The translations under genes and the position numbers were made by a program. Positions 1,256-48,680 of a stretch of DNA of 56,055 bases are shown here, one piece after another (positions within the stretch are counted from its first letter, which is position 1; each line of letters starts with the position of its first letter). The notes under the pieces were generated by a model. The model was not told the DNA's origin. It saw nothing but the letters and a program-made list of their open reading frames with translations, and did no database searches. Origin of the DNA: Methanobacteriota archaeon. Lineage in GTDB: Archaea > Thermoplasmatota > Poseidoniia > Poseidoniales > Poseidoniaceae. Location: assembly GCA_018659375.1 (NCBI GenBank), contig JABJMO010000023.1, positions 1 to 56,055 on the forward strand. Direction: 5' to 3'.

Positions 1256-2194
1256 ATGTTCAAAGACCTATTTGATTCAAAGGTAAACATGGGCGAGATG
1301 CTATACCAAGGGAAAGTAAAACAAGTTTGGTCAACCGATGATCCAGATATTTTAGAATTTAGATTTACCAATCAAATTTCTGTATTTGACCAAATCATAC
1401 CCTCCTTGATTCCTCGTAAGGGAGAATCTCTTAACAGAACTACCGCTCACTGGTTCAAACTGATTGAGCAAGAAGGCATCTGCGGCACTCATCTAGTGGA
1501 AGTAAATGCGGCTGACAGATGCTTGGTAAGGAAGGTAGAAGTCATCAAAGAACCAGGCGCAATCCCCCGGGATATGGAATGGGTATTTGTCCCACTCGAA
1601 ATAATCTGCCGACATTACCTTTCAGGTTCTGCGTGGCGTAGGTTCCAACGCGGTGAATTAACGTCAGAACAACTTGGTGTCTCAGCTGACTGTGAATACG
1701 GTGCTAAACTATCTAAACCATTTTTGGAAGTGACTACAAAGTTCGAAAAGTTTGATAGAAACATTACTAATGAAGAGGCCCTAGAGATTTCTAATATTAC
1801 ACCGGATGAGTTGAATGAAATATTTGATGTTGTGCTAAAAGTAGATGCTCTGATAGAAAGAGAGGCCGCAAAGAATGGCTTAATTCATGTTGATGGGAAA
1901 AAAGAGTTTGCGCTTGGACCTAATCGGAAAGTTGTGCTTGTCGATACTTTTGGAACTTTAGACGAGGACCGTTGGTGGGATGCTGCAGCATATGAAAGCG
2001 GTGAATGTATCGAACTGTCAAAAGAATTTGTTCGAACTCACTATATTGGAACTGGCCATCAAGCGCAATTAAAGCATGCCAGAGATACTGGTGCCGAGGA
2101 TATACCTATTCCAGAATTGCCACAGAGTGTCATTGATGAAACAGCCCAATTGTATGCTTCTATGTATGAGAGACTAACTTCAAAAGAGTTCTAA
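1256..2194 (+). CDS. purC: SAICAR synthetase (purine biosynthesis)
   Basis: Phosphoribosylaminoimidazole-succinocarboxamide synthase joins CAIR and aspartate using ATP in de novo purine synthesis. The family's ATP-binding start (MLYQGKVKQVW), first signature (PLEIICRHYLSGSAWRR, near residues 112-130) and second signature (VDGKKEFAL followed by VDTFGTLDEDRWW) are all present. Length of 312 is slightly longer than the compact bacterial form because of the C-terminal extension. Start is uncertain: TTG 1241 would overlap aIF6, ATG 1256 gives a short helical lead-in, and ATG 1289 (preceded by AAAGGT) gives the shortest form starting MGEMLYQGK. Its stop codon directly abuts the stop codon of the convergent gene at 2195. 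No other pur genes are in the window. Confidence 0.93.
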   Translation: MFKDLFDSKVNMGEMLYQGKVKQVWSTDDPDILEFRFTNQISVFDQIIPSLIPRKGESLNRTTAHWFKLIEQEGICGTHLVEVNAADRCLVRKVEVIKEPGAIPRDMEWVFVPLEIICRHYLSGSAWRRFQRGELTSEQLGVSADCEYGAKLSKPFLEVTTKFEKFDRNITNEEALEISNITPDELNEIFDVVLKVDALIEREAAKNGLIHVDGKKEFALGPNRKVVLVDTFGTLDEDRWWDAAAYESGECIELSKEFVRTHYIGTGHQAQLKHARDTGAEDIPIPELPQSVIDETAQLYASMYERLTSKEF

Positions 2195-2878
2195 TTATGA
2201 ATGCGCTCGATGCATGACACCAGAATCTCGACGTTCTGCTGCCTTTATCATCGATAAAAGATGTTTGATAGCATCTCTTATGCCACCATCAAGAGGCTCT
2301 TCTGACGCTACTGACCAATTACGTCCACCTAGTAATTTTCTCAACTCTACCACTTCTTCAAAATTTAGAAAACCGAGGATATTCATTCCTCCCCGTCCAC
2401 CAACATATCTTGGTGAGTCATAATTATCCAGTGTGTTAAATGAATTTAACTTGTTCAGTAAATTCAAAGTTTTATTATATCCTTCATTAGAGGATTTTAC
2501 CCTATTATTTGGTCTTAGAAATTCCAACACATAATCAATAAGTGATCCATTTCCATATGGGAATCTTCCAAAACGTTCCCTAGTCAAATTATCTCCTACG
2601 GTCATAGGTTTACCTTCTTCATCTAGATGAATTGAACAAGTAAATAATAACATGGAATCATCCCAAGTCATTTCTTCTAATGATAACGGTTCAACTAATC
2701 CTTGATCTACCAACCTATTGCGTATTGATATGCGATTTCGTAATAATTGTTGCCAATTCTCTTCTTTTGAGGGTTTATCATCTGATAAAATAGCAGTCAA
2801 TTCTCCTGCTACGTCGCCATCACATGAATGTAATGTATAGAATGCTGTTGTGGAATCATGGGCTTGGTCTAGGTCCAT
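2195..2878 (-). CDS. Unknown protein, 227 aa
   Basis: I do not recognise a family. The protein is soluble, mixed alpha/beta in appearance, acidic at its N-terminus, with no signal peptide, membrane segment or cysteine cluster. A glycine-rich turn (YVGGRGGMNILGFLNF) around residue 160 and a helical C-terminus are the most distinctive parts. It lies downstream of the giant surface protein on the same strand with a 38-base gap and may be co-transcribed with it. Its stop codon abuts that of purC with no spacer. The reading is supported by a long open frame, an ATG start and the end-to-end fit with purC. Confidence 0.7.
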   Translation of the reverse strand: MDLDQAHDSTTAFYTLHSCDGDVAGELTAILSDDKPSKEENWQQLLRNRISIRNRLVDQGLVEPLSLEEMTWDDSMLLFTCSIHLDEEGKPMTVGDNLTRERFGRFPYGNGSLIDYVLEFLRPNNRVKSSNEGYNKTLNLLNKLNSFNTLDNYDSPRYVGGRGGMNILGFLNFEEVVELRKLLGGRNWSVASEEPLDGGIRDAIKHLLSMIKAAERRDSGVMHRAHS

Positions 2879-2916
2879 GCTTTGCGGAATGCTCCGACTA
2901 AATTAATACCTTGTAA

Positions 2917-9669: not shown

Positions 9670-10008
9670 ATGCAAATTGTTGATAGAATGGAAAACAAAT
9701 TATTGAATCGTATCGAGATTAAATTCAGTATGAGGCATACAGGAAAAGCTACACCTTCAAGGAAAGATGTAATGGATTTAGTTAAAACATTAGAGCCAAA
9801 GTCTAATCCTGAACATATTGTAATCAAATACACCAATACAAGGTTCGGGCAACCGTTAACCACAGGTCTCGCTTACATTTACGGTGATGTTGACTCGATG
9901 AAGGTAGAGCCAGAATACATCCACAAGCGACATGAGGTTTTCAGAGCAGCAAAGGCTGAGCCAGCTGCTGCTGAAGAGCCTGCAAAGGCAGAAGGAGGCG
10001 ATGAGTGA
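9670..10008 (+). CDS. rps24e: Small-subunit ribosomal protein S24e
   Basis: A 112-residue archaeal/eukaryotic small-subunit protein. The conserved core is recognisable in [30 protein letters not shown] and [19 protein letters not shown]. After the core (about residue 95) comes a low-complexity Ala/Glu/Lys tail ([19 protein letters not shown]), an acidic extension likely to be disordered. A strong ribosome binding site (GAGGTGA) precedes ATG 9670. Its stop overlaps the start of rps27ae by one base (TGATG), so the two are translationally coupled. Confidence 0.94.
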
Positions 10009-10190
10009 TGGGAGACGGACCTAATTCAGCAGGCAAGTGGAATAAATACTCAGTTGGCGAAGATGGCAAACTGGAACGCAAAGCAGAATTCTGCCCACAA
10101 CCAAGTTGCGGCCCTGGTATATTTCTAGCAGTTCATAAGAACCGTATTTCTTGTGGTCGTTGCGGCTACACCAAAATGAATGATGAGTAA
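10008..10190 (+). CDS. rps27ae: Small-subunit ribosomal protein S27ae
   Basis: A 60-residue zinc-ribbon ribosomal protein. Zinc ligands are CPQPSC near residues 26-31 and CGRC near 46-49, matching the C-x4-C / C-x2-C pattern, with the conserved [21 protein letters not shown] 10008 is preferred to GTG 10005 because GGAGG sits nine to fifteen bases upstream and the ATG overlaps the rps24e stop. The stop TAA abuts the stop of the convergent gene at 10191 inside a perfect 12-base palindrome. Confidence 0.94.
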
Positions 10191-11123
10191 TTACTCTTCT
10201 TCTTGGGCATCAATAATGTCCCAAGTTCCATCATTACACAGATAAATACCCGATTTACTGTCAATGTGGACAGCGATTTCAGATAATTGTGTCCGAGACA
10301 TGGTTTTAGCTGATATGAATGCTAACTCACGCCAACCCGCTATATGCCAACCCTGATCGCTTTCACTCCATTCAGCGTAATTTATCGGCCCTGACAACTT
10401 GGCAGTTAGTTTTACTTCACCGGCTTCATAAACTGCAATTATAGAGTTATTTAATTGCAGTAAATAATGATCGTCATGCTTGAAAACTCCTTCTAGATAG
10501 CCATCTAGCGGTATTATTTTACTCTCAATAGTTTTTCCAGTTTTGATGTCAAAACGTATAATTCCCCCACCTTTAGACCACACCTCGTAATATTGCTCAT
10601 CGCAGGTAGTTCCAACAGTTTCCATCGCTCTAGGGATTTTAGCTAGTTTTTTCCAACTTGGTTCGGGTGCTCGCCAATTTTCAATTGCGTCAATGGATAG
10701 ATTGTAAATTCCTTTACGCCATAATACGAAGGTGAATGAATTCGCATTAGCGGTAAGAGAAAGTGGCTCAGCATCAAGTACGTGTGACCAAGTATTCCCT
10801 GCCGGGTGAATGGATTTTTCAATAGTCTTCCTTATTCTTAGATCTCCTCGCTTAACACCCTCTTCAAATTCATTATTGAGGTCTATAGCAGCCATCCTTG
10901 CAAGTAGAAGTTCTTGATCCAACCATGTTGCTACAAGCATATTTTCGATTATTGCTGCGTTCTTGATTGGTGTCGGAAACGGCCTTGTTTGTTGGCCTAC
11001 TAAATTTCCTTCAGAGTCTATCTTTTGTAATTCACCATCGACGCCAATGACAATATGACCACCCAAATAAGGCAAAACTTGTTTGGGAGTAAACCCAAGA
11101 TTGTCTGGAATTCCCCACGCCAT
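10191..11123 (-). CDS. Unknown protein, probable beta-propeller, 310 aa
   Basis: No confident family. The protein is a run of short beta-strand-like segments with regularly spaced tryptophan- and glycine-rich turns (HIVIGVDGELQKIDSEGN, YEVWSKGGGIIRFDIKTG, YLLQLNNSIIAVYEAGE, WDIIDAQ), which looks like a WD40/PQQ-type propeller scaffold. There is no signal peptide or membrane helix, so it is probably cytoplasmic. ATG 11123 (MAWGIPDN) is chosen; the open frame reaches 11174 but would then overlap the divergent dtdA frame. With ATG 11123 and dtdA at 11199 the 75-base gap can hold divergent promoters. Confidence 0.7.
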   Translation of the reverse strand: MAWGIPDNLGFTPKQVLPYLGGHIVIGVDGELQKIDSEGNLVGQQTRPFPTPIKNAAIIENMLVATWLDQELLLARMAAIDLNNEFEEGVKRGDLRIRKTIEKSIHPAGNTWSHVLDAEPLSLTANANSFTFVLWRKGIYNLSIDAIENWRAPEPSWKKLAKIPRAMETVGTTCDEQYYEVWSKGGGIIRFDIKTGKTIESKIIPLDGYLEGVFKHDDHYLLQLNNSIIAVYEAGEVKLTAKLSGPINYAEWSESDQGWHIAGWRELAFISAKTMSRTQLSEIAVHIDSKSGIYLCNDGTWDIIDAQEEE

Positions 11124-11198
11124 GACACGACGAGTTGATTGTGGTTTGTCAAATCTCGTATGGAAAGAAGTCAAAAATGTTCACCTGTACAGACTGTT

Positions 11199-12210: not shown

Positions 12211-13188
12211 ATGACTGGATGGTTCTCGAAAGTTGTTGTCGGCATGACCATTCGCATGCCAAAATGGTTTGTTGGTTGGGTTTCTAGGCGTTATGTTGCT
12301 GGGAATTCAATAGCGGATGCAGTGAAAGTTATGCAGCGTTTGAGCAAAGAGAACGCTTGCTTTACCGTTGATGTTCTTGGCGAGGAAATTTCTACCATGG
12401 CAGAAGCACAGTATTTCTACGATGAATATGCCAAACTCATATCGGCAATTATTGAACATGGTTTAGATTCAAATCTCAGCATCAAACCGACTGCCTTTGG
12501 ATTACTAATTAATCGTGAAAAGGGTTACCAAAACATTCGTAATTTGGTTAAGATGGCGGCACAAAACGATATGTTTGTTAGGCTCGATATGGAAGACCAT
12601 CGCGTAACTCAAGATACTATTGACGTAGTTGTGGATTTACACAATGAGGGCATCACCAATGTTGGTACAGTATACCAAGGAAGATTGTTTAGAACTCTTG
12701 GTGATATTGATTATCTAGAGCAGCAACTTGGACCGGGAGCAGATTATCGCATCTGCAAGGGAATTTATTTGGAACCAGAAGAAATATCTCATACGGGTTA
12801 CTCAGAGATTGTTGGAGCCACAAATGCAAGTATCGACAGGATGTTATCTGCAGGCGCTTATTGTGCTATTGCTTCACATGACAAACCGGTGATTGATCAT
12901 GCGTTATCAGCCCTTGAATCATATAAGATGGGCCCTGGTATAGAAGATCCTAGGGGGAATGCGGGTAAACCCCGTAATGGCAAAGGACCAGGATATGAAT
13001 TCCAAATGTTGCTAGGTGTGAGAGGTCCTTTACGCAGAAAATTAGCAGCCAAAGGTCACCGGACAAGAGTCTATATTCCATATGGTGAAAAATGGTATGA
13101 GTATAGCATTAGGCGGCTAAAAGAAAATCCAACAGTAGGGGCTCAGGTTGCTAAAGCATTTCTAATGCCTTGGACCAATAGACCTTGA
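12211..13188 (+). CDS. Proline dehydrogenase (PRODH, FAD)
   Basis: Stand-alone proline dehydrogenase oxidises proline to pyrroline-5-carboxylate and passes electrons through FAD to quinone. The beta/alpha barrel is recognisable with VRLDMEDHRVTQDT in the flavin-site region, the lysine of YRICKGIYLEP, ASHDKPVI, YEFQMLLGVR and the diagnostic C-terminal YIPYGEKWYEYSIRRL that binds proline carboxylate. Length of 325 matches monofunctional PRODH; no P5C dehydrogenase domain is fused and no partner gene is in the window. Proline use as a carbon and energy source suits a peptide-consuming heterotroph. ATG 12211 follows a GGGGTAGTC stretch. The stop abuts the convergent gene at 13189. Confidence 0.92.
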   Translation: MTGWFSKVVVGMTIRMPKWFVGWVSRRYVAGNSIADAVKVMQRLSKENACFTVDVLGEEISTMAEAQYFYDEYAKLISAIIEHGLDSNLSIKPTAFGLLINREKGYQNIRNLVKMAAQNDMFVRLDMEDHRVTQDTIDVVVDLHNEGITNVGTVYQGRLFRTLGDIDYLEQQLGPGADYRICKGIYLEPEEISHTGYSEIVGATNASIDRMLSAGAYCAIASHDKPVIDHALSALESYKMGPGIEDPRGNAGKPRNGKGPGYEFQMLLGVRGPLRRKLAAKGHRTRVYIPYGEKWYEYSIRRLKENPTVGAQVAKAFLMPWTNRP

Positions 13189-13956
13189 TTAGTTTCTTGG
13201 TTTCTTTTTCTTCCGTTTGTTACTCGGAGTTACCCGCTTTTTAGTAACTTCCTTAGGTAATTCTGGATTTGGATTATCCCCTAGACGACCTTCTTTCCAT
13301 GCTTGTCTTCTCTCCCGGGGTGTTTTTGGTTCAAAGTGTTCCAAATTCGGTGGCTCATGCAGGTAAATTCGTTTGATGTCTTGAGCCTCTACAGTTCCTT
13401 TCAAAGTTCTACCAGTTCCGGTGTGGATTGCTCTAATGCGCCAAACTTCCTCAGCATAATCCATCATTGTTCCTGCAGAGAATCTAGTTCCATAGTCGAC
13501 CAACATAGAGGTCGAATCTGAAAATTCCCCCCTAGTCATAGTTATTTTGACCCGAACCATATCAGTTCTAAGTGCGGAGATAATCGATGCATTAGTAGCT
13601 TTGATAGATTTTTTCTTTCGCCCAGATTTGTCGATTATCTGATTGACACTCCAAAGCATCTCTTCATCTTGAAACACATCGCCTAACAGAAATACCTCAT
13701 CATCATCGATATCTAATTCAACCCTTTTGGAGTTAGGTCCATCTGTTAATATGAAAGGTATTTTTATCGATAATGGTTCACGGATTTGAAGATTGTAAAT
13801 ATAATCACACTCGAGACACTTGACTAGTAAGTCTTTACCTGTTCCAACAGACTTTTCTTTTAGTACCTGATGCTCTGTATATTCATCACATTCGCTGCAT
13901 ACAGTCACATTTTCAACAACTTCTTCGGAGTCGTCTTCTGCTATGTCATCTGTCAT
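13189..13956 (-). CDS. HVO_0476-family zinc-finger protein
   Basis: Archaeal protein of unknown molecular role. An N-terminal zinc ribbon carries C-x2-C pairs VCSECDEYTEHQVL and VKCLECDYIYNLQI (about residues 20-60), followed by a beta-rich domain (VRVKITMTRGEFSDSTSMLV, AEEVWRIRAIHTGTGRTLKG) and a very basic tail ending NKRKKKKPRN. The tail suggests nucleic-acid or ribosome contact, which is inference. ATG 13956 (MTDDIAED) is preferred to GTG 13980. Length 255. Its stop codon touches that of proline dehydrogenase. Confidence 0.8.
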   Translation of the reverse strand: MTDDIAEDDSEEVVENVTVCSECDEYTEHQVLKEKSVGTGKDLLVKCLECDYIYNLQIREPLSIKIPFILTDGPNSKRVELDIDDDEVFLLGDVFQDEEMLWSVNQIIDKSGRKKKSIKATNASIISALRTDMVRVKITMTRGEFSDSTSMLVDYGTRFSAGTMMDYAEEVWRIRAIHTGTGRTLKGTVEAQDIKRIYLHEPPNLEHFEPKTPRERRQAWKEGRLGDNPNPELPKEVTKKRVTPSNKRKKKKPRN

Positions 13957-14049
13957 GCTATCGACTCTCCCACAGCCCACTAGGTTTCAAGTAATCGCAT
14001 GAAATATTTTGATACGAGAGTTCTTGAGAGGTGTACTGTAGGGTTAAGC

Positions 14050-14784
14050 ATGAGCGAAGATACCGATACGACACCTAGTCGTAAAGAGTTGCTCAGTCAT
14101 TTACTTTCCAAGGTTAGTGAACTGCCGCGGGATGAACCAATAATTGCTGCTAATATCAATGAGCAGTTGCAACACATGGGTCTTTCAACATGGTCATTAT
14201 CTGCCATTAGAAGAATTAGAGACACAGTATATCGGGTAAATCCACAGAGCATACTTGAAGTTGGTGGCGCTATAGGCCATCGTACAGCATGGTTGTTGGA
14301 TTTATTTGAACAACACAACCAACCTGAGAGATTTGATATTGTTGAGCAAGGCAATAAATTTGCCGTAATAATAAAGCGTTTAGTAGACAGATATGAGGCT
14401 CCTTCATGGACCAATATCGTGGTTGGCGAGTTTTCTACTCTATCTGCAGAGTCAATTGCTTGGAAAGCAGCCACAATTTCAGGTTTACAAGAGGGTGACT
14501 CACCTCTAGCACACAGTTACGATGTGATTATTGTCGACGAAAAGTTATCTAATTTAGCCAGCTACATGGAGAATTCTTTGCAATTATTATCTAAGAATGG
14601 AATTCTCTTGACTACAGAACCCCCTGTGCCTTCTGGAGATGTGGACGAGAATGATAAAGAAATGATGGCAATGGTCGATGGATTTAATTCATGGATAGAA
14701 CTTATCAAAAACTCACAAAATGATTATCATATCGCGTTTTGCCCGGTATTTGAAGCGACTATTGTGGCATTCTTGCCCAAGTAG
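14050..14784 (+). CDS. SAM-dependent methyltransferase-like protein
   Basis: A 244-residue protein with the fold of class I (Rossmann) methyltransferases resembling small-molecule O-methyltransferases. Motif I is ILEVGGAIGHRTAWLLDL (about residues 74-91), followed by a strand with an acidic end (FDIVEQGNKFAVI) and the motif IV-like YDVIIVDEKLSN, then a strand near LSKNGILLTTEP. The glycine pattern of motif I (EVGGAIG) is normal. The substrate cannot be inferred. ATG 14050 (MSEDTDTTPS) is preferred over the start at 13999. The stop TAG abuts the stop of the convergent subtilase gene. Confidence 0.7.
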   Translation: MSEDTDTTPSRKELLSHLLSKVSELPRDEPIIAANINEQLQHMGLSTWSLSAIRRIRDTVYRVNPQSILEVGGAIGHRTAWLLDLFEQHNQPERFDIVEQGNKFAVIIKRLVDRYEAPSWTNIVVGEFSTLSAESIAWKAATISGLQEGDSPLAHSYDVIIVDEKLSNLASYMENSLQLLSKNGILLTTEPPVPSGDVDENDKEMMAMVDGFNSWIELIKNSQNDYHIAFCPVFEATIVAFLPK

Positions 14785-15912
14785 TCAACTAAAACTTTCC
14801 AATAAATTGGCGATTTGGATCATCCCATAACCGTAGTCATCATCATGACCATCTTGAGTTGGCAATGGTTTTGCTGTATCCATTATTGCTTGCTTTATTT
14901 GTATTACAGTATCTTCTGAGGCTTGTCCACCATTAGTGCCTAGTTCAGGATTTTGCTCGAGTAATAATGCAATTGCTCCAGTCACGTAGACAGTAGCAGC
15001 ACTGGTGCCATCAACTAGTTGCCAAGTGCCTCGATTGTTGATTACCGGAACGGATTCGGCTGGAGCAACAATTTCAGGCTTTTCATGCGGTTGATTTCTC
15101 GGTAGAATTAGTGGGAATAAGTTGCCGTTATTGTCACCTGTAGATGATCCACTCCAGTGTTCACCAGTTTGGGTTGTTCCACCCACTGAGATTACTAGTC
15201 GTTCACTAGAAGGATGCGCCACATCACCATCATCATTAGTGCCTCCATCATTTCCAGCAGCGGCAATCACTACGATTCCTAAATCGATAGCATCGCTTGC
15301 TGCGTCAGAAGAATCTCTTCCTGAAAAAGGATTGAACGGAATTAATCCTGGTGCTCCACCGAGTGATAATGAGATTATTTGTACACCTTGGTCAACACAC
15401 CAATCGATTGCCTCTGCAACAATTGAATCTTCTCCACTACCATTTTCTGACAATGCTTTAGCAACCACCAACTCAACATTTGGCGCAACACCTTCAATGT
15501 ACCCATCTCCTACTAGGATTCCAGCCATACTAGTGCCGTGCCCTTGGTCATCATAAGGAGACGTTTGACTGCCGACAAAATCTCGCCATGCCACTAAATT
15601 AACGCCTGACAAATCAGGGTGGCTAGTATCTATTCCAGAGTCAACAATACATACTTTTACTCCAGTCCCATCACCACCAACCTCGTCGATTTGGACTAGT
15701 TCTTGATAAACTGATTGAGCCTCCAATGCCTCGGAAGTTGGTCGTATTCCAAACGGATTCTCTTCAATTACTAAAGCAATTAAGTATCCAGTCGCTAAAA
15801 TCACAGTTATGGCTAGAAGTATGCCTATTATTGGCCTAAGTGACTCATTATGTGATAGCAGATTCGCCTCGTGTATTTCATCAAGAGATTGGTTGTCACT
15901 GGTTGATTCCAT
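14785..15912 (-). CDS. Membrane-anchored subtilisin-like serine protease (S8)
   Basis: Residues 1-27 are cytoplasmic, one transmembrane helix follows (IIGILLAITVILATGYLIALVI), then a short linker and a subtilase domain facing outward. The catalytic triad is clear: Asp in VCIVDSGIDTSHPDL, His in DDQGHGTSMAGIL and Ser in VDGTSAATVYVTGA, with the oxyanion Asn in AAAGNDGG. The usual GTSMAxP sequence around the serine is changed (GTSAAT, no proline). No inhibitor I9 propeptide is evident, so activation may differ from secreted subtilases. Length 375. It is the last gene of a tight three-gene operon: the sufS stop and a possible TTG start at 15921 overlap, or ATG 15912 follows six bases later. Confidence 0.9.
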   Translation of the reverse strand: MESTSDNQSLDEIHEANLLSHNESLRPIIGILLAITVILATGYLIALVIEENPFGIRPTSEALEAQSVYQELVQIDEVGGDGTGVKVCIVDSGIDTSHPDLSGVNLVAWRDFVGSQTSPYDDQGHGTSMAGILVGDGYIEGVAPNVELVVAKALSENGSGEDSIVAEAIDWCVDQGVQIISLSLGGAPGLIPFNPFSGRDSSDAASDAIDLGIVVIAAAGNDGGTNDDGDVAHPSSERLVISVGGTTQTGEHWSGSSTGDNNGNLFPLILPRNQPHEKPEIVAPAESVPVINNRGTWQLVDGTSAATVYVTGAIALLLEQNPELGTNGGQASEDTVIQIKQAIMDTAKPLPTQDGHDDDYGYGMIQIANLLESFS

Positions 15913-15917
15913 AACTA

Positions 15918-18360: not shown

Positions 18361-18446
18361 GCCGAGATCGCATAGCCTGGTAGTGCGCGCGACTGGAAAT
18401 CGCGTGGGATCTTCCCTCGGGGGTTCAAATCCCTCTCTCGGCGCCA
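18361..18446 (+). tRNA. tRNA-Ser (GGA)
   Basis: Class II tRNA with long variable arm. Acceptor GCCGAGA (18361-18367) pairs with TCTCGGC (18436-18442); the anticodon stem CGCGA/TCGCG encloses the loop CTGGAAA with anticodon GGA at 18395-18397; the variable arm GGGATCTTCCC is a hairpin; the T-arm holds GGTTCAAAT. Discriminator G at 18443, then CCA is encoded in the DNA (18444-18446). No intron. A TATA-like TTAAAC lies about 28 bases upstream near 18330. Confidence 0.95.
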
Positions 18447-18483
18447 AAACGATTACAATTGAATCAACAGATTGATTGTTAGG

Positions 18484-18558
18484 TGGAGCCACTGGCGAGA
18501 TTTGAACTCGCGACCTCCTCATTACCAATGAGGTGCTATACCCCTAAGCCACAGTGGC
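18484..18558 (-). tRNA. tRNA-Thr (GGT)
   Basis: On the minus strand the acceptor GCCACTG (from 18558) pairs with CAGTGGC near 18488-18494. The anticodon stem CCTCA/TGAGG encloses loop TTGGTAA with anticodon GGT. The T-arm is standard (GAGTTCAAATC). The discriminator is T at 18487 and CCA is encoded (18486-18484). No intron. The gene converges on tRNA-Ser with 37 bases between their CCA ends. Confidence 0.95.
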
Positions 18559-18697: not shown

Positions 18698-18706
18698 GGA
18701 TGGGAT

Positions 18707-18895
18707 ATGATGGGAATCAGTTTAGAAAACAAAGTAGACATGAAAAGTCGGATGAAAGAATTACAATCACAAGTAGACGAACTAAAAGAGCTCGTAAATA
18801 CTCTACTCAGTGTTATTTGTGAAGAGCCAGATGGAGTGCACACCGGTGCTGCACCAACCATACCTGGTCAATCACACACTAAATTCTGTATGTGA
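18707..18895 (+). CDS. Small unknown protein, coiled coil, 62 aa
   Basis: An open frame of 62 codons with tandem ATGs at 18707 and 18710. Residues about 5-40 have heptad-like leucine/valine spacing (SLENKVDMKSRMKELQSQ then VDELKELVNTLLSVI) and look like one coiled-coil helix; the rest is short and polar and ends in FCM. No family recognised. Support for a real gene comes from the coherent coiled coil, a structured leader upstream and a stop codon one base from the stop of convergent rtcB, matching every other convergent pair in the window. It could dimerise or act as a small adaptor, which is inference. Confidence 0.6.
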   Translation: MMGISLENKVDMKSRMKELQSQVDELKELVNTLLSVICEEPDGVHTGAAPTIPGQSHTKFCM

Positions 18896-18896
18896 T

Positions 18897-20390
18897 TTAG
18901 CCTTTTATTACAATATTTGGACGCATTCTAACCACAGGTCTTGCTAGACCTGCACGGCTGGTTAAATCGATTACTTCATCAACGTCTTTGTAAGCCTCAG
19001 GGGCCTCTTCTGAAAGTACGTTTGGAGTCGAAGCATGGATCCGTATTCCCGCAGCTTCAAGACGTTTCTTGAGCGCTTTTCCATCAATAGTTTTCTTGGC
19101 CTTAGTTCTTGACAATGCCCTGCCTGCGCCATGGCATGATGAACCAAACGCTTGGTTCTGACCCGTTTGCGGCCCAGCCATAATCCATGACCCTGTACCC
19201 ATGTCACCAGGAACCAATACTGGTTGGCCTGTTTGTTGGAAACTTGCTTCAATATGTCCACTATCTCCAGCAAATGCTCTAGTAGCACCTTTGCGATGAA
19301 CGGCACATTGACAGTTTTTGCCGTGTAAATTATGGGTTTCGATTTTAGCGATATTATGAGCAACATCATACAAGGTTCTTGCTTCACCATCAATGCCCAT
19401 TTCCAATTTCAAAACCTCTCTTAGTCGATGTGCTAAAGCACTACGATTAGCGAACGCAAAATTTGCTGCCGCATTCATTTGGTTAAGATAATCTTGTCCG
19501 GCTTTTGAGTGCATAGGCGCACAAGCTAATTGTCGGTCCGACAAAGTAAATCCGTATTCCTCAGAGTGCCACCCTTCGGCAGTCTTACGATATTTTTGCT
19601 CTAGTTTTCTAGAATGCTCACTGCATACTTGATGGCCTAGTCCTCTTGAGCCAGAGTGAATCATGGCCAATAACTGCCCTTCATACAAGCCCCATTGTTT
19701 GGCAGTTTCTTGGTCAACCACTTGTTCAACAGATTGTAATTCCATGAAATGGTTGCCACTGCCTAAAGTTCCTAGTGCTCTAAGGCCCCGTTCTAGAGCT
19801 CTTGATGAAAGGTCGTTGTCAGCTACTTCTAGTAGTCCATTTGATTCCAGTACGGCAAGGTCCTCATCATAGCCAATTCCTAACTCGACAGCTGCTTGAG
19901 CACCACCTTGAGTAAGTTGTCTAATTTCTGCCATATTGATATCAAGTCCACCCTTGCCTGAAGCACCTGCAGGGATTCTTCCAGCAATTCTACCGCCGAG
20001 TTTTTTGATATTTGGCACATCATCGATAGTTGCTTCTAAGGCTAGAACCCTGACTCCGCAATTAATGTCAAATCCTACCGCACCTGGTGAAATTGCTCCA
20101 CCATTGTCGCCATAATCTACGTCAGTGGCAATCACGCCGCCAATTGGCAATCCGTAGCCAAAATGCCAGTCTGCCATTGCCCATGCTTCACCAACTATCC
20201 CTGGCAATTCTGCTGCGTTAACCAACTGTTCTGGACCCCTGTCATCAATATGGTTGCTGAGATGTTGTTGGTCAGTAACAATTCGAGCATCTACATTCAT
20301 TTTTCCATGGGCTTTTATTCTGACCGTTCCGTCATCTAGCGATTCAAGATGCTCTCGCCAGTCCTCGCCCATGGATGCGGGTGTCTGCAT
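18897..20390 (-). CDS. rtcB: RNA-splicing ligase RtcB
   Basis: GTP-dependent RNA ligase that joins 2',3'-cyclic phosphate and 5'-OH ends, the archaeal enzyme for joining tRNA halves after intron removal. Conserved metal and guanylylation residues are visible: Asp/Cys in GFDINCGVRVL, His in GSGNHFMEL, His in HSGSRGLGHQV, His in LYDVAHNIAKIE and the GMP-accepting His in FGSSCHGAGRALSR. Length 497 is typical of archaeal RtcB without an intein. The ATG at 20390 is preceded by AAAGGT; an internal ATG at 20372 is possible. Divergent from alaS. Its stop lies one base from that of the small gene. Confidence 0.96.
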   Translation of the reverse strand: MQTPASMGEDWREHLESLDDGTVRIKAHGKMNVDARIVTDQQHLSNHIDDRGPEQLVNAAELPGIVGEAWAMADWHFGYGLPIGGVIATDVDYGDNGGAISPGAVGFDINCGVRVLALEATIDDVPNIKKLGGRIAGRIPAGASGKGGLDINMAEIRQLTQGGAQAAVELGIGYDEDLAVLESNGLLEVADNDLSSRALERGLRALGTLGSGNHFMELQSVEQVVDQETAKQWGLYEGQLLAMIHSGSRGLGHQVCSEHSRKLEQKYRKTAEGWHSEEYGFTLSDRQLACAPMHSKAGQDYLNQMNAAANFAFANRSALAHRLREVLKLEMGIDGEARTLYDVAHNIAKIETHNLHGKNCQCAVHRKGATRAFAGDSGHIEASFQQTGQPVLVPGDMGTGSWIMAGPQTGQNQAFGSSCHGAGRALSRTKAKKTIDGKALKKRLEAAGIRIHASTPNVLSEEAPEAYKDVDEVIDLTSRAGLARPVVRMRPNIVIKG

Positions 20391-20481: not shown

Positions 20482-23331
20482 ATGGTTATGGCTCCCATCG
20501 ATTTAGCAGTCTTTCATGAGAATGGCTACATCCGAAAACAATGTCGAGTAACTGGCTTATGGTTTTGGACTTCAAATCACGATCGTGATACTTGTGGTGA
20601 TACTAATGAAGATGAGTACACCTTTATTGGCAGTCCACTAATTAGTGGTTTTGATATGCGGGGAAAGGAACTAAAAGATGCCATGCGAGAAGCATTTCTC
20701 GGGTTTTTTGAAGAACGTGAACATACTCGAATAGAACCATATCCGATTCTGGCAAGGTGGCGCGATGACATTCACTTGACCATCGCATCTATTGCTGATT
20801 TCCAACCACATGTTACGTCTGGTCTAGTAGACCCGCCGGCAAATCCTTTGACCATTTCACAGCCCTGTATTCGATTAACAGATGTTGATGCAGTCGGGCG
20901 TAGTGGTCGCCATTTGACTACTTTTGAGATGATGGCTCATCACGTTTTTAACCGACCTGATGAGGGTAGAATGTATTACTGGATGGAAGAATGTGTCAGG
21001 TATTGTCATGAAATGTTTACCCAAACATTCGGTATAGATTCTAATGAAATTACCTACGTGGAAAACCCGTGGTGTGGTGGCGGTAATGCAGGCCCTGCAG
21101 TCGAAGTCATTGTTGGTGGGCTTGAATTAGCAACTCTAGTATTCATGAACCTTCATGAAGATGAAAATGGTGATGTTGAAATAAAAGGCGACAAGTATAG
21201 CGAAATGCCACTGCAAATTATTGATACTGGGTATGGACTAGAAAGGTTTTGTTGGGCTGCGGCAGGTACTCCAACAATTTACGAAGCAATTTATCCTCAA
21301 ACTGTGGCTTGGCTCAAGGACTTAGCAGGTTTTGAGGGAGTCGCAAAACAATGGCCTAATTTAGACCTTGACAAAATTCTTGGTGAAATGAGTCGGCTTA
21401 ATGGGATTATGAATATCGAAGCGGGTGTTGATGGTGAAGAACTGTTAGCCACCTTTTTACAAAGGCTGGCTCAACGTGGCATCGATATTTCTAGTGAGCA
21501 ATTCACCGCTATTACCGACCCACTGTCTAGGATTTATGCTATACCAGACCATCTTCACGCGTTATGTAACATGTTAGGTGATGGACTTGTACCATCTAAT
21601 GCTAAAGCAGGATATCTGGCAAGGATGATGGCACGTCGAACACTTAGAATGCGTGATGAACTTGGCATAGATGTATCACTAGCTGACTTAGCACTTCACC
21701 ATCTAGAGGTCAATTTGGGCAATAAAACCATGAAACAAACTCACGATGGTATTGCAACAATACTCAACCTCGAGGAAGCAAAATATGTTGAGATGTTACG
21801 TAAAGGGGAACAGGTAATCAAGACTATGCTGAGTGGGGTCGATAAGTCAACTGAAACTATTGCGGATGAGTTACTGTTTTCGCTCAATGATTCACACGGT
21901 ATCGCTCCGGAAATTGCGGTTTCATTGGCCGTACGTTCTGGCTGGAAATCAGTATCTCTTCGAACTGGATTTACCGCAGAGTTAGCGGAACGACATGCCA
22001 AGATGGCCAAGGATGCTGCCAAAGAAAATACCGAATCAACATTGATTGACGGAATTGAACATCTACCACCAACAAGTCCACTTTATTATGACGATGTATA
22101 CCAATTTGAGTTCGATGCAAGTGTCCTGTTTTGTGCAGAAATAAACCAGGAAGGTCTGCCTAAAGGTATCACCCACGGTGTAATTCTAGACCGTACTTGT
22201 TTTTATCCTGAAGGAGGAGGTCAAGAAGCTGATTTGGGCTTCTTGTCAACTGATTCTGTCCATTGCCAAGTTTTGCACGTTGCAAAGATTGGCAATCACA
22301 TTGTTCATCTTACCGATGGTCCGCTTAGTAACGGGGATTTAGTCCATGGTAGTCTTGATTGGAATCGTCGAAAACAATTGATGGATCATCACACCTCTGT
22401 ACATATTGTTGGTGGTGCAGTAAGACGAATTTTAGGCCCGCACATATACCAAGCAGGTGCTAACAAAGCAGTGGATTCAGCAAGACTAGATATCACTCAC
22501 TTCAACCGCTTGACTCGACAAGATTTAGACTCTATTGAAAAGATGGCTAATGAGGTGATAGTTCAAGTTCACAAAACAGAGAAAACTATTCTTAATCGTA
22601 AAGATGCTGACCGTAAGCATGGTTTTGATTTGTATCAAGGCGGCGCACCTAAAGGTAATACAATTAGAGTGTTGAGGATTTCAGATCACGATATTCAAGC
22701 TTGTGGCGGCACACACCACGATGAACTCGGGCAAATTGGCTCAATCCGTCTAGTCCGTTCCAATGCTGTGCAAGATGGAGTTGAACGATTACACATTGTT
22801 GCCGGACAAGCAGCGCTTGATTATGCAAGGGGCCAGGATGGAATCTTGCGTCAGACAGGCGAAGTGTTTGGTGTCAACGTGGCTGATGTCCCAAAAACCG
22901 CAGAACGATTCTTTGGCGAGTGGAAAGAACAGCGAAAGAGGATTGAGGCATTAGAGGCTGAAATCGTTCGTCTCAGAACTAGTGGTGGAGATGATTCCAG
23001 TGTATCTAAAGACGGAGTGAGGATTGTTATCATGGAATCAGACGGCGGGCTGAAAAACATGTCGAAAATGCTGAAAGAATTAACTCTAGATGATTCACAA
23101 CCAACCCTAGCGATATTAGGCTCGAAAGAAGGTGGTGGAAAATTAATGGTTGCAACTACAGAAAATTCAATCGCTAGTGAGAAGTATAACGCAATAGAGA
23201 TACTTCAAGGAATTATTCCACATATTTCCGGAGGGGGTGGTGGAAGGCCAACTTTTGCTCAAGGAGGAGGCTCAAACCCTGAAGGTTTGCAAAACTCATT
23301 CGATGCTGCTAAGGCTATGTTAGGAATCTAA
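20482..23331 (+). CDS. alaS: Alanyl-tRNA synthetase
   Basis: Class II synthetase of the archaeal AlaRS type, 949 residues. The archaeal N-terminal extension (RKQCRVTGLWFWTSNHDRDT) precedes the catalytic core (ISQPCIRLTDVDAVGRSGRH, TTFEMMAHHVFN, GYGLERFCW). The editing domain that removes mischarged Ser/Gly has the metal-site HHTSVHIVGGA and CGGTHHDELGQIG. The C-terminus is the glycine-rich ISGGGGGRPTFAQGGG found in archaeal AlaRS. AGGTG at 20471-20475 favours ATG 20482 over GTG 20473. The TAA stop overlaps the stop of the convergent Nudix gene by four bases. Confidence 0.96.
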   Translation: MVMAPIDLAVFHENGYIRKQCRVTGLWFWTSNHDRDTCGDTNEDEYTFIGSPLISGFDMRGKELKDAMREAFLGFFEEREHTRIEPYPILARWRDDIHLTIASIADFQPHVTSGLVDPPANPLTISQPCIRLTDVDAVGRSGRHLTTFEMMAHHVFNRPDEGRMYYWMEECVRYCHEMFTQTFGIDSNEITYVENPWCGGGNAGPAVEVIVGGLELATLVFMNLHEDENGDVEIKGDKYSEMPLQIIDTGYGLERFCWAAAGTPTIYEAIYPQTVAWLKDLAGFEGVAKQWPNLDLDKILGEMSRLNGIMNIEAGVDGEELLATFLQRLAQRGIDISSEQFTAITDPLSRIYAIPDHLHALCNMLGDGLVPSNAKAGYLARMMARRTLRMRDELGIDVSLADLALHHLEVNLGNKTMKQTHDGIATILNLEEAKYVEMLRKGEQVIKTMLSGVDKSTETIADELLFSLNDSHGIAPEIAVSLAVRSGWKSVSLRTGFTAELAERHAKMAKDAAKENTESTLIDGIEHLPPTSPLYYDDVYQFEFDASVLFCAEINQEGLPKGITHGVILDRTCFYPEGGGQEADLGFLSTDSVHCQVLHVAKIGNHIVHLTDGPLSNGDLVHGSLDWNRRKQLMDHHTSVHIVGGAVRRILGPHIYQAGANKAVDSARLDITHFNRLTRQDLDSIEKMANEVIVQVHKTEKTILNRKDADRKHGFDLYQGGAPKGNTIRVLRISDHDIQACGGTHHDELGQIGSIRLVRSNAVQDGVERLHIVAGQAALDYARGQDGILRQTGEVFGVNVADVPKTAERFFGEWKEQRKRIEALEAEIVRLRTSGGDDSSVSKDGVRIVIMESDGGLKNMSKMLKELTLDDSQPTLAILGSKEGGGKLMVATTENSIASEKYNAIEILQGIIPHISGGGGGRPTFAQGGGSNPEGLQNSFDAAKAMLGI

Positions 23332-24845: not shown

Positions 24846-24849
24846 TGGC

Positions 24850-27137: not shown

Positions 27138-28253
27138 ATGAATGAACCGAGGATCATAGTTCATTGTGACCTTGATGCATTTTATGCGGCTGTTGAAACC
27201 TTACATCATGGTTTTGACGAAGCGATTCCTCTGATAATTGGGTCAGATCCTGAAGGCGGTAGAGGAAGAGGAATAGTATCTACTTGTAACTATGCTGCGC
27301 GTAAGTTTGGAATCCGTTCTGCCATGGCAATTAGTGAAGCGTGGCGCAGATGTCCGGGAGTGCCATATGGTACTGGCACTTACATTAGAGGTAGTAGAGG
27401 CTTATACTCGAGAGCATCTCGTAAAGTCATGCAAATTTTACAAAAACCAGCGGAATATTTTGAGCAAGCAAGTATAGATGAAGCCTACCTGGATATTACT
27501 AATTGCGTATCTGGAGACTGGGACGCAGCCGTGGCTTTATGTCGGGTTTTACAAGAACAGATTATCAAAGAAATAGGATTGTCAGCTTCGTTTGGTATTG
27601 CGCCAAATAGAATATTAGCAAAAATGTCTAGTGAAGTCAACAAACCCAAGGGTATTTTTCGAATTCTTCCCGACGAAGTGAGTCAGTTTTTCGAATCAAG
27701 AGATATCAGAGAAGTACCCGGAATTGGTAAGAAAAGAGCGACTCAGTTGGCTGAATGGGGTATAACAACAGTCGATGAAATGTATGGTTATGGAGAAATT
27801 GCTCTTGCCAGAATTACTGGTGAAAGATTTGCCAACTGGATTATGATGGTTTATGAAGGAAAAACATCGAGTGAAATTAGTCCACTTCGGAGTAGAAAAT
27901 CAATTGGCAAAGAACATACCTTCGATTTTGATAAAGAGGACCATGAGATAGTTCTTGAATCATTACTTAGTTTAGTGCGTAGAGTAATGAAATCATCAAG
28001 GGAATCTGGAGTTTCTGGGCGGTTGGCAGAAGTAAAAATACGCTACACTGGTTTTGAAACACATACTCACGGTAGATCAATACCAGTAGCAATGGATGAT
28101 GATGAGGTATTTACTGGCCTAGCAAAGCGTTTGTTTGCCAATAATGCACAACAAGATCGGAATATAAGGTTAATTGGTTTTAGGCTAGGCCAACTTGATA
28201 CACCAAAAACTAAACAAACACGTTTGTTAAATTTATTTAGTGAGGAAGAATAG
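27138..28253 (+). CDS. dinB: Y-family DNA polymerase IV
   Basis: Translesion polymerase of the DinB/Dpo4 type. Catalytic carboxylates lie in VHCDLDAFYAAVE (about residues 8-20) and ASIDEAYLDIT; the nucleotide-binding palm shows SFGIAPNRILAKMSS followed by EVNKPKG. A helix-hairpin-helix follows (VPGIGKKRATQLAEWG), then the little-finger domain. The last residues, QTRLLNLFSEEE, resemble a PCNA-interacting motif (Q-x2-L-x2-L-F). Length 371 is typical. The TAG stop directly abuts the stop of the convergent valS gene. Confidence 0.95.
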   Translation: MNEPRIIVHCDLDAFYAAVETLHHGFDEAIPLIIGSDPEGGRGRGIVSTCNYAARKFGIRSAMAISEAWRRCPGVPYGTGTYIRGSRGLYSRASRKVMQILQKPAEYFEQASIDEAYLDITNCVSGDWDAAVALCRVLQEQIIKEIGLSASFGIAPNRILAKMSSEVNKPKGIFRILPDEVSQFFESRDIREVPGIGKKRATQLAEWGITTVDEMYGYGEIALARITGERFANWIMMVYEGKTSSEISPLRSRKSIGKEHTFDFDKEDHEIVLESLLSLVRRVMKSSRESGVSGRLAEVKIRYTGFETHTHGRSIPVAMDDDEVFTGLAKRLFANNAQQDRNIRLIGFRLGQLDTPKTKQTRLLNLFSEEE

Positions 28254-30734
28254 TCATTCTAAACTATGCATTGATGTAAGTATATTTGAGAATCCATGTA
28301 GACTCTCTGGTATGACAATACCAGAAATTGGCTGATTTAGAGATATACCATTCTCCTTCTTCGTGGCCCAAACATCACCATTGAAGGCTTGTAAGTCTAC
28401 TGTGGCAGACCTCAATTCTTCATCCCGTAATTGATTTGAAGTAGCAGCACTAGGAAATGCATCAACATCAACAGCAGATTTGCCATAGATGGTGCTACTG
28501 ATATGGTGAGTAAAGAATGGACATATAGGGCTAAAAGCACTCATAAAATCTCTAACTACACGATGTATAGTCCATGCTGCAGCAGTATCATCATCATATA
28601 ATCTAGACTTCACCATCTCAAGGTAATGACTTGGTAATATTCCCGTGCCAAATGTTTTCAAATTTTGTGTGGCTGTGTAAATATCTAAATTAGCCCATGA
28701 TGTCTTTACTTCAGACATCATTAGGTTAAACTCTGATAATATCCATTCGTCTTCAATATTCAAGCTCTCAGGCTTAGTGTCTAGGTCGCTTGGAACATCA
28801 AATTGGGAAGCAAATCTAGCGACATTAAATAATTTAGTTAATACTCCAAAATATCTCTTTTCAATTTCTTCAGGATTAATATGGAAATCATCACCGACTT
28901 GGGCATCACAAGCTTTCCACAAACGGAAACATTCACTACCAATTTTATTCGCTTTTAAGCTAACAGTTTTTTCTGGTCCTTTGACTTTCCATGAACCAGT
29001 ACGGCCACCTGCGCCGCATTCAAGCACAGAATCAGCATCAATGCCATTGCCTAATGATTTACTCATTTTTCTGCCCCATGGGTCCATTCCTAAACCATCA
29101 ATCCAAACATGGTTGAAGCCTGGTTTGTCGAGTAAGAGGGCAGACTTTAGTAGCGTGTAGTAAAGCCAAGTTCTGACTATCTCTTTGCCCTGCGGCCGCA
29201 ATGCTGTGGGGAATGATTTCTCAAATACCTCTGGTTGGTTTAGATATCCACTGACAAACAAATTAGAATTTGATGAATCCATCCATGTATCGAATACTTT
29301 CTCTTCACCGATAATATTGCCCATGTCTGTAGTCAATTCTGAATAAGCACCGATATCTTGACGAGTGTCGCGATTTATTACGCGACTGCCTGCAGGTGGT
29401 GATTCTCTCCATGGTTGAACGTAAGTTCCAGATGGTGGAACTATGATGTGTTTAGTATCCTCACTGTACCATATCGGTATTTCGGTATGATACCATCTGC
29501 GACGAGATATTGGCCAATCGATACTTATGTTATCCATCCAGTCAAGTAGAAATTGACGGTTTCTGTGTGGATGAAATTTAATATCCTCAATTAATTCTTT
29601 CATTCTACCCTGAATATGAGTTTGCCTGACATACCACTCTTTTAGTAGAATGATTTCAACAGGATTCTTCCCTCTTTCAGATACTGGTACTTCTTGATCT
29701 CGCTCTTCAATTTTGGCAACTTTGCCATTTTCATTAAGGTACTCAATAATAGAGTTGCGTGCTTCAATCACTGTCATATTTGACCATTGGCCTGCGATTG
29801 TGGTCATCCGCCCTTCCAAATTAATGGCTTGAAATGGAGTTAGCCCGAGTTCACGAAACACTGCAACGTCATTTTGATCGCCAAAGGAACAAACCATCAA
29901 AACACCTGAACCAAAATCAGATTTTACAGATGGATGGGTCAGGATTTCTACAGTATTATCTCGACCATCAACAGGTAACGGCAGCGAGATTGTTTTGCCA
30001 ACTAAATGTCGATATCTGTCATCATCTGGATGAACAACAATAACTCCACATGCACAAATTAACTCAGGTCTAGTTGTAGAGATAATTATCTCCGTTCCAT
30101 CATCTAATTGCCACTTAACATCTACGAGTTTTGTTTTGCGTGGTAGTCTTTCTACTTCTGCATCAGCAATTGTAGTGCCTTCGACTGGGTCGTAGATATT
30201 TGGTCGTAAATCCTCAATAATAGTACCGTTCTTGAATAATTCTACAAATATTGCTTGTGTGACTGCGCGATAATTTGGTGCATCTGTAAGATACTCTTTG
30301 TCAAAATCACAGGACAGACCCACTCTCTTAGCAGTATTTCTCATGGCTTGTGTGAATTCTTCGATGGTCTCTTGACATAACCTTAAGAATTCAGCACGGT
30401 CATAAGTTTTCATCTTTCTCTTGGTGTTTTTTTCAACAGTAAATTCTATGTTAATTCCGTTACGGTCCACGCCCCAAGGAAAGTATACTTCCTTGCCGAG
30501 TAATCTTTGTGACCTAGCAATTACATCAATCATAGAGTATTGTGCAACAGCTCCAATATGCCAGGTCCCAGAGGGATATGGTGGTGGTGTGTCAATAACA
30601 AATATCTCTTTTCCGGAGTCTGGATTAAACCCGTATCTCTTGGAATATTCTGTTGCATCAGACGAATGCTCGGTCTGAATTTTCTTCTCTAGGTCTACTG
30701 ACCATCTTTTCTCATTCAATCTTGGAGTTGGCAT
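28254..30734 (-). CDS. valS: Valyl-tRNA synthetase
   Basis: Class I synthetase of 826 residues. The first nucleotide-binding signature is PPPYPSGTWHIGAV, where the last His of HIGH is replaced by Ala; the second is GRKMSKSLGN and is intact. Next to the first is FPWGVDRNGINIE, the substrate-binding loop. The CP1 editing domain begins ISTTRPELICACGVI and contains VCSFGDQNDV, which resembles the ValRS sequence rather than IleRS or LeuRS and supports the assignment. The anticodon-binding helical domain follows. ATG 30734 is preceded by GGTGAGG and is preferred to GTG 30752. Divergent from the RND transporter gene. Confidence 0.92.
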   Translation of the reverse strand: MPTPRLNEKRWSVDLEKKIQTEHSSDATEYSKRYGFNPDSGKEIFVIDTPPPYPSGTWHIGAVAQYSMIDVIARSQRLLGKEVYFPWGVDRNGINIEFTVEKNTKRKMKTYDRAEFLRLCQETIEEFTQAMRNTAKRVGLSCDFDKEYLTDAPNYRAVTQAIFVELFKNGTIIEDLRPNIYDPVEGTTIADAEVERLPRKTKLVDVKWQLDDGTEIIISTTRPELICACGVIVVHPDDDRYRHLVGKTISLPLPVDGRDNTVEILTHPSVKSDFGSGVLMVCSFGDQNDVAVFRELGLTPFQAINLEGRMTTIAGQWSNMTVIEARNSIIEYLNENGKVAKIEERDQEVPVSERGKNPVEIILLKEWYVRQTHIQGRMKELIEDIKFHPHRNRQFLLDWMDNISIDWPISRRRWYHTEIPIWYSEDTKHIIVPPSGTYVQPWRESPPAGSRVINRDTRQDIGAYSELTTDMGNIIGEEKVFDTWMDSSNSNLFVSGYLNQPEVFEKSFPTALRPQGKEIVRTWLYYTLLKSALLLDKPGFNHVWIDGLGMDPWGRKMSKSLGNGIDADSVLECGAGGRTGSWKVKGPEKTVSLKANKIGSECFRLWKACDAQVGDDFHINPEEIEKRYFGVLTKLFNVARFASQFDVPSDLDTKPESLNIEDEWILSEFNLMMSEVKTSWANLDIYTATQNLKTFGTGILPSHYLEMVKSRLYDDDTAAAWTIHRVVRDFMSAFSPICPFFTHHISSTIYGKSAVDVDAFPSAATSNQLRDEELRSATVDLQAFNGDVWATKKENGISLNQPISGIVIPESLHGFSNILTSMHSLE

Positions 30735-30891
30735 ATGCCTCACCGGCCCCACGCTCGTTAATAGTACGGGTCCAACCTGCCCAATACTTACCTGCTATCA
30801 AACCAACGGATGGTCTGGTATTATCATTAACTTTAGTCATATAGTCGGTAAACATTAGAAGAGAGTACTCTTGGGATAGCATGGGAAGACA

Positions 30892-46061: not shown

Positions 46062-46103
46062 ACTTAAGCAAGGATTGAATAGGGTAAAACCGGTGGGAGT
46101 ATT

Positions 46104-47474: not shown

Positions 47475-47483
47475 GTGGTCGCT

Positions 47484-48680
47484 ATGCTTTGGAAGTCTAT
47501 TCTTCAACATCAACAAGGATGGTCTAAAGATAATAGTTCTTCATTTAGGCTTTCTATTGATGAAGCTGCGGAATTATATGAAAATGCACCGTTACATGAA
47601 CTTACTTTTGCAGCAAACTTGAGGCGGCAACAAATATTCCCCAATGGTGTGGTAACATATTTGGTTGATCGAAACATAAACTACACCAATGTTTGTACGA
47701 TCAATTGTCAATTCTGCTCATTTTATCGACCTCCTGGTCATGACGAGACTTATACTCAATCATACGATGAGATTTCACAGAGGGTGACTGAATTAGAACA
47801 AATTGGCGGATCACGCATCTTGATGCAGGGCGGCGTAAACCCCTCACTAGAGTTTGAGTGGTATGAGTCCTTGATCAAGCACCTTGTAGAACACCACCCA
47901 AGTATTGATTTAGATTGTTTTAGCCCGATAGAAATTGAAGGGATTGCCGAGGTTGCTAACCTATCAATTCTTGAAGTTTTGACTAGACTTAGTGACGCAG
48001 GGATGGATGGGCTTCCCGGAGGTGGAGCGGAAATGTTAGTCGAGGAAATAAGAACTGATATATCACCGAAAAAAGGTTCTCCAGATAATTGGCTTAACGT
48101 TATGGAAACAGCCCAATCGTTGGGGATGACTACTAGTGCAACCAATGTTTTTGGGTTTGGAGAAACGCTACGTAATAGAGTACAACATATGGATAGAATA
48201 AGAGCACTCCAAGATTCATCATTGCATAAATATGAAAATGGATTTACTTCTTTCATCGCTTGGCCTGTTCAACTTGAAACTAATACCTTCGGGAAACGAA
48301 ATCGTGGCCAAAATAAGTATGTCTTAGGAGCTGGACCAACTGAGTATATCAGGCATATTGCAATTTCAAGGCTATTTTTTGATAATATCGATAACATACA
48401 AGCCTCTTGGCCTACCATGGGCTTAGGTATCGCCCAAATGGCTTTACTTGCAGGCGCCAACGACGCTGGATCAACTATGATGGAAGAGAACGTTGTCTCG
48501 GCTTCAGGCACGACAAAATTATCCGCATCCGAAATTGAATTACAAAATACGATAATCCGTTCTGGCTTTATACCGTCTAAGCGTGATAGTAAATACAATC
48601 ATTTACCCACTTTAATCAATGATAATAACATCAAAGAATACCCCTCTCCAATACCGTCCCAAGTCACTTCAACTAAGTGA
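47484..48680 (+). CDS. mqnC: Cyclic dehypoxanthine futalosine synthase (MqnC)
   Basis: Radical SAM enzyme of the futalosine pathway of menaquinone synthesis. The sequence fits MqnC rather than its relatives MqnE, CofG or CofH: YLVDRNINYTNVCTINCQFC gives the cluster Cys triad (CxxxCxxC), ILMQGGVNPSLEFEWYE, DGLPGGGAEMLVEEIR, TSATNVFGFGET, FTSFIAWPVQLETNTF and GANDAGSTMMEENVVSASG follow the MqnC order. Length 398. ATG 47484 preferred to GTG 47475. No other mqn genes are in the window, so pathway completeness cannot be judged. Its 3' end overlaps that of the convergent gene by 12 bases. Likely shares a transcript with the upstream peptidase. Confidence 0.92.
   Translation: MLWKSILQHQQGWSKDNSSSFRLSIDEAAELYENAPLHELTFAANLRRQQIFPNGVVTYLVDRNINYTNVCTINCQFCSFYRPPGHDETYTQSYDEISQRVTELEQIGGSRILMQGGVNPSLEFEWYESLIKHLVEHHPSIDLDCFSPIEIEGIAEVANLSILEVLTRLSDAGMDGLPGGGAEMLVEEIRTDISPKKGSPDNWLNVMETAQSLGMTTSATNVFGFGETLRNRVQHMDRIRALQDSSLHKYENGFTSFIAWPVQLETNTFGKRNRGQNKYVLGAGPTEYIRHIAISRLFFDNIDNIQASWPTMGLGIAQMALLAGANDAGSTMMEENVVSASGTTKLSASEIELQNTIIRSGFIPSKRDSKYNHLPTLINDNNIKEYPSPIPSQVTSTK

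Follow-up and report, generated by a model that had tools for sequence, protein, structure and literature searches.

In a marine archaeon of the Poseidoniales (Marine Group II), convergent protein genes usually end in contact or nearly so, and in the genome analysed here (G000; 1.9 Mb in 80 contigs) the commonest distance between two opposing stop codons is exactly zero. This contact of convergent ends is a real habit of the lineage. In the window, which is the whole stretch of 56,055 nucleotides that was analysed, and in a sample of the genome, convergent 3' ends overlap or nearly touch, and the class with a 4-base overlap and shared stop letters is enriched (10/69 pairs). Most likely the spacer was worn away, rather than the contact having a function. 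The best explanation, in our judgement a fairly probable one, is that a dispensable convergent spacer decays under a deletion bias until it reaches its floor, while the overlaps are added by stop capture. Directly observed are the peaks in spacing, which recur in part in relatives, an excess of spacer deletions in the family, the absence of a flank motif, a hairpin or an extra T-tract at the G000 junctions, and the presence of an aCPSF1 gene.

Convergent junctions of the window

The window opens inside an archaeal 23S rRNA gene, and the 5S rRNA gene is next (331-450). The gap is defined here as the stop-to-stop distance, a negative gap is an overlap, and a slash between two stops stands for exact contact. 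Nine junctions of convergent protein genes are present, and at least one gene at each of them has a Pfam match. The stop coordinates given in a preliminary description were re-read from the sequence and are correct: five gaps are 0, and the others are +1, +4, -4 and -12. Orthologs were searched by tblastn with both genes of each pair, and the gap was taken from the next in-frame stops. The 230 loci include G000's own copies for some pairs, and the collections were not deduplicated against each other.

SAICAR synthetase (+, 1241-2194) and a gene without a Pfam match (-, 2195-2878) meet as TAA/TTA (2192..2197), and the gap is 0 in 20/36 loci. A small ORF that stops at 10190 encodes ribosomal protein S27a (+, about 10008-10190; Pfam Ribosomal_S27, E 1.3e-17), and it meets another gene without a Pfam match (-, 10191-11174) as TAA/TTA (10188..10193). 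In this case gap 0 is found in 17/56 loci, and the rest reach up to 151. A long spacer of 36-151 bases is present at this junction (10008-10191 and relatives) in 13/56 loci, which indicates that spacers can grow too. Proline dehydrogenase (+, 12211-13188), whose best matches in Poseidoniales contigs reach 98% identity, and a CPxCG zinc-finger protein (-, 13189-13980) are in contact as TGA/TTA (13186..13191), with gap 0 in 68/74 loci and +1 in 6/74. The contact between an O-methyltransferase-like gene (+, 13999-14784) and an S8 peptidase (-, 14785-15921) is TAG/TCA (14782..14787); 13/65 loci have gap 0, and the range is -26 to 10. TAG/TCA is also found (28251..28256) between a Y-family (impB/mucB/samB) polymerase (+, 27138-28253) and a class I aminoacyl-tRNA synthetase (-, 28254-30752), where the gap is 0 in 11/29 loci.

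Four junctions depart from zero in the window. A conserved small ORF (+, open from 18671) ends in TGA, one base away from the TTA of RtcB (-, 18897-20390), so that the gap is +1 (18893..18899). This ORF (18671-18895, 75 codons) has no Pfam match; its relatives converge on RtcB in 37 loci, and the six printed have -CM at the C-terminus. The two members that look weak, namely the S27a frame and this 75-codon frame, are genuine genes. An alanyl-type tRNA synthetase (+, 20473-23331) and a NUDIX protein (-, 23328-24050) share stop letters in CTAA (gap -4, 23328..23331), and their orthologs show -4 in 11/47 loci and 0 in 8/47. At 24843..24852, TAA, 4 bases and TTA (gap +4) lie between a metallo-beta-lactamase fold protein (+, 24120-24845) and a gene without a Pfam match (-, 24850-26001), with -4 in 6/23 loci and 0 in 3/23. 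Among these three pairs, zero is the commonest ortholog gap in one (RtcB, 26/37 loci); in the other two -4 leads, and zero comes second, alone or in a tie. Finally, a radical SAM CofH-like gene (+, 47475-48680) and a gene without a Pfam match (-, 48669-49832) overlap by 12 bases (48669..48680). Both genes of this pair were matched in only 3 loci (-12, 174 and 396), and no ortholog has gap 0.

According to the preliminary description, all convergent pairs touch or nearly touch. This is true of the protein genes; a tenth convergent pair, tRNA-Ser (+, ends at 18446) and tRNA-Thr (-, 3' end at 18484), keeps 37 bases between the two genes (18361..18558). The divergent spacing of about 70-240 bases described there agrees with a median of 124 and quartiles of 88-165 (69 divergent pairs in a 560-kb sample). 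The reported lack of 3' untranslated room between touching stops is borne out, as the spacer is absent. Thus, the RNA 3' ends must lie within the opposing gene, or the RNAs must overlap. To call convergent ends fixed in contact was too strong, because orthologous pairs show many gap values.

Stop-to-stop spacing in the genome and its relatives

Our own simple gene finder was applied to 640 kb of the 1.9 Mb of G000, of which 584 kb lies outside the window. The genome is small and dense, and the coding share of the sampled sequence is 92%. Outside the window 69 convergent pairs were found, and 59 of them have gaps within -33..+23. The commonest gap is 0 (12/69), and the next is -4 (10/69). The other pairs comprise 13 with other negative gaps, 21 with +1 to +6, three with 12 and 23, and 10 with 40 or more; a spacer of 7-30 bases is thus found in only 3/69 pairs. 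Against a flat distribution over 0..6, the 12 zeros among 33 gaps give a binomial p of 0.0014. With stricter gene calling the zero peak persists (10/63 pairs, p 0.007). The gene finder can miss small genes; S27a was skipped, and that junction was scored 182 rather than 0. Such misses bias the count against zeros and can hide some of them.

The window is rich in zeros relative to its own genome, as the chance of at least 5/9 at the rate of 12/69 is 0.011. The five exact zeros in nine had been taken as evidence against a loose distribution. Zero is a true peak, but in the genome at large it is reached by about one pair in six, a lower rate than "five of nine" would suggest. A wider survey of stop-to-stop distances had also been proposed, and in the G000 sample the spacing is not smooth around zero and has a peak there. 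When G000 (without the window) is pooled with four other genomes of the phylum, 30 of the 77 gaps of 0..6 are zero (p 9e-8).

Taken one by one, the relatives share the zero peak in part. Zeros number 7/60 in G012, a member of the same genus as G000, 5/28 in G031, 4/35 in G027 and 2/33 in G039, with p values against a flat 0..6 of 0.029, 0.0023, 0.01 and 0.26, respectively. Zero exceeds the flat expectation in three of the four genomes and is the single commonest value in only one (G031). In G012 it is level with +2 (7 each), in G027 it is below -4 (4 vs 8), and in G039 it is below +2 (2 vs 4).

An annotation artefact was considered as a source of the zero peak and rejected: the same finder gave only 1 zero among 36 pairs in 250 kb of E. 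coli, and the peak in G000 survives stricter calling. According to the RefSeq annotation of 250 kb of E. coli K-12, counted by eye and leaving out pairs with an annotated pseudogene or RNA between the two genes, there are 35 convergent pairs. One has gap 0, five have -4, three have other overlaps, 26 have 31 or more, and none has 1-30.

The history of the gaps was followed in the orthologs. In sister pairs at 80-99% nucleotide identity, the gap is kept in 58/61 cases, including 32/32 at zero. These results indicate that gaps are static over short times. On the ortholog trees, parsimony counts about 38 departures of the gap from zero and about 7 arrivals. From this excess of departures zero looks old in this family, although both the selection of pairs and the method favour that outcome.

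Termination signals at the junctions

The preliminary description had offered a shared termination or processing site as a cause of contact. The search for signals speaks against it: no flank motif is found, none of the hairpins listed lies near the ends, and T-richness is at the generic antisense level. At 17 sampled zero junctions of G000, the flanks contain 5.65 bits of information versus 6.92 +- 1.00 in chimeric gene-end controls. The zero junctions of two relatives (7 and 5 junctions) likewise have no motif beyond the chimeric controls. The palindromic stop hexamer was rejected as a motif, since only 3/17 zero junctions of G000 are TAA/TTA and the rest pair unlike stops. As for the pairing of stops, TGA is paired with TAA in 11/17 zero junctions of G000 and with TGA in 0/17, while G012 has TGA with TGA in 5/7. 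This contrast may be due to chance or base composition.

Hairpin-plus-T sites in the window number 45, versus about 39 in shuffled sequences (15, 16 and 14 vs 14.4, 13.3 and 11.6). None of the terminator-like hairpins listed falls in the first 100 bases behind any of the 18 convergent gene ends. The strongest intrinsic-terminator-like site among those listed is located just behind the 5S rRNA gene, where a 10-pair hairpin is followed by eight T (482-505, +).

In G000, T-rich octamers are present within 80 bases after 52/133 convergent stops. The frequency matches that in the antisense of ordinary gene ends (132/305, p 0.46) and that behind genes with long co-directional spacers (28/84), and it exceeds that behind operon-internal stops (27/132, p 0.0012). 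Since the convergent T-richness is the generic antisense level, the opposing gene gives T-rich sequence for free. Of the five genomes tested, G027 alone has convergent ends with a T-richness above that of the control antisense (40/51 vs 59/105, p 0.008), so terminators may be written into the opposing genes there.

The CPxCG zinc-finger protein has a lysine/arginine-rich C-terminal tail in the loci printed (13189-13230, -), and on the opposite strand the tail is pyrimidine-rich DNA directly after the proline dehydrogenase stop. This lysine-rich tail raised the idea that C-terminal tails serve as terminators of the opposing genes. The idea was rejected for G000, where the frequency of A-runs in the last 60 bases is 0.13 at convergent ends versus 0.12 and 0.15 at co-directional ends. 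In distant relatives there are hints of a higher frequency, namely 0.45 vs 0.21-0.30 in G027 and 0.46 vs 0.31-0.40 in G039, though the T-richness of G039 has a p of 0.84.

G000 encodes aCPSF1 (family TIGR03675, 824 bits, above the curated cut-off). Archaeal termination by means of a U-tract and aCPSF1 is described in the relevant part of PMC8716108. In Methanococcus maripaludis depleted of aCPSF1, the pertinent section of PMC7515710 reports read-through into convergent units, whose abundance is not markedly affected. This result fits a spacer without a job.

Origin of the contact

Spacer indels were counted in 100 triplets of close relatives. There were 19 deletions versus 7 insertions, removing 56 and adding 9 bases. 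The deletions and insertions are 12:2 in divergent, 6:5 in co-directional and 1:0 in convergent spacers. As only 1 of the 26 indels is in a convergent spacer, the deletion bias is borrowed from the other spacer types. A birth-death model of spacer length fed with these 26 events gives a probability of 0.52 for gap 0 among gaps 0..6 (bootstrap 0.19-0.84), and the observed values are 0.36 (12/33) in G000 and 0.39 (30/77) in the pooled genomes. Between +1 and +6 the observed shoulder falls off less steeply than the model's point estimate. As modelled, neutral indels would yield the zero peak without selection on contact.

The decay of the spacer would proceed as follows. The 3' end of a protein gene in this lineage seems to need no private spacer. 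A polymerase that passes the stop would enter the antisense strand of the neighbour, which is already about as T-rich as the DNA that follows genes with long spacers. Termination in archaea acts on U-rich stretches, with aCPSF1 as the nuclease. Spacer indels would be near neutral and deletion-biased, and the spacer would shrink until the stop codons meet. Zero would be the natural floor, because any further deletion would cost a stop. After such a loss, the frame would continue and would often be caught at stops with shared letters (-4) or deeper (-8, -12). In this scheme we infer that termination occurs inside the opposing gene, that the convergent spacer is neutral, and that it shares the deletion excess, which comes mainly from divergent spacers. 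The one convergent tRNA pair, which retains its spacer, is a supporting case. Against the scheme, an equilibrium model does not predict the parsimony excess of departures over arrivals. The excess may come from ascertainment, as 5/8 pairs are zero in G000, and from the bias of parsimony. The single convergent indel, the flat shoulder, the relatives in which zero does not lead and the T-rich convergent ends of G027 also count against it.

Stop capture, in which loss of a stop lengthens the gene as far as the following stop in frame, often near or inside that of the neighbour, was the ratchet suggested in the preliminary description. The neutral stop-shift model is that of Kingsford et al. 2007, as cited in a passage of PMC3887535, and of Lillo and Krakauer 2007 (PMC2174442); the portions of these two articles concerned with overlap origin treat stop shift as a main source of convergent overlaps. 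In agreement with capture, -4 overlaps are frequent in G000 and in E. coli (5/35), and gaps of -1, -2, -3 and -5 are absent in G000, as the sharing of letters demands. Capture was simulated on 58 real G000 junctions, those of the window among them. With a frame shift as the trigger, the expectation was 0.8 zeros, whereas 12 were seen, and 3.5 at -4, whereas 9 were seen; reading on after a lost stop gave 0.5 zeros. The spacing thus does not follow random extension to the next stop, and the overlaps fit better than the zeros. Stop capture can account for the overlaps and a part of the -4 peak, but as the sole cause of the zeros it fails in this simulation, and as the main explanation it is improbable.

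Selection could act on the length of the genome or on the contact itself. In nutrient-poor sea water, selection for an economical genome (streamlining) could have removed the spacer in place of a mutational deletion bias. Such selection suits a dense genome of this size, and it would lead to the same final state with the same peaks in spacing. However, the indel excess between close relatives would suffice for the peak, and divergent and many co-directional spacers are still long; we regard this possibility as rather unlikely. Alternatively, the contact itself would be selected, because a shared termination or RNA-processing site or a regulated 3'-3' overlap of messages needs the stops to meet. 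In favour of this, zero is the commonest gap in G000, it is very long-lived at some junctions (68/74 loci), and 0/32 sister pairs at zero changed. These features are outweighed by the absence of a flank motif (17 junctions), a hairpin and an added T-tract, by the drift of orthologous gaps and by the few arrivals at zero under parsimony, and selected contact is very improbable. There is only a slight chance that Poseidoniales keep the contact by selection as a fixed boundary between opposing transcripts, with the spacing and not the sequence as the signal. An example of such a boundary, equally doubtful as part of the same reading, would be a zone of aCPSF1 cleavage that serves both strands.

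Deletion-biased decay can be compared with known systems. Known convergent overlapping genes have in common with G000 the convergent pairs, the -4 overlap with shared stop letters and the neutral stop-shift origin. Unlike the systems of the capture model, G000 has exact contact as its leading value, which capture as simulated does not give. Streamlined and reduced genomes lose intergenic DNA without a job, and they resemble G000 in density and in the excess of deletions. The loss in G000 is orientation-dependent, however; the convergent spacers are mostly gone, and the median length of the divergent ones is still 124 bases. Convergent overlaps are most common in archaeal clades, as stated in a part of PMC2174442. 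The bidirectional intrinsic terminators of convergent bacterial genes, treated in a section of PMC1852404, resemble the present junctions in that two genes are ended at one place, but the G+C hairpin and T-run are not found here. In the same section, high-confidence terminators are given for 11% of robust tail-to-tail regions as the mean over 27 archaeal genomes.

Among the matches listed, which are mostly general literature, no earlier description of convergent spacing that peaks at exactly zero is present, and Kingsford et al. 2007 on near-overlapping spacing may contain one. The kind of feature is already known, and the prominence of the exact zero is a useful refinement. Here nature offers an example where the floor to which spacers decay reads as a number. 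The position of the peak tells the two processes apart, since deletion-driven decay puts it at exactly 0 and stop capture at -4. With no spacer between them, convergent genes of these archaea must have their transcripts ended inside coding DNA, or the transcripts must be allowed to overlap.
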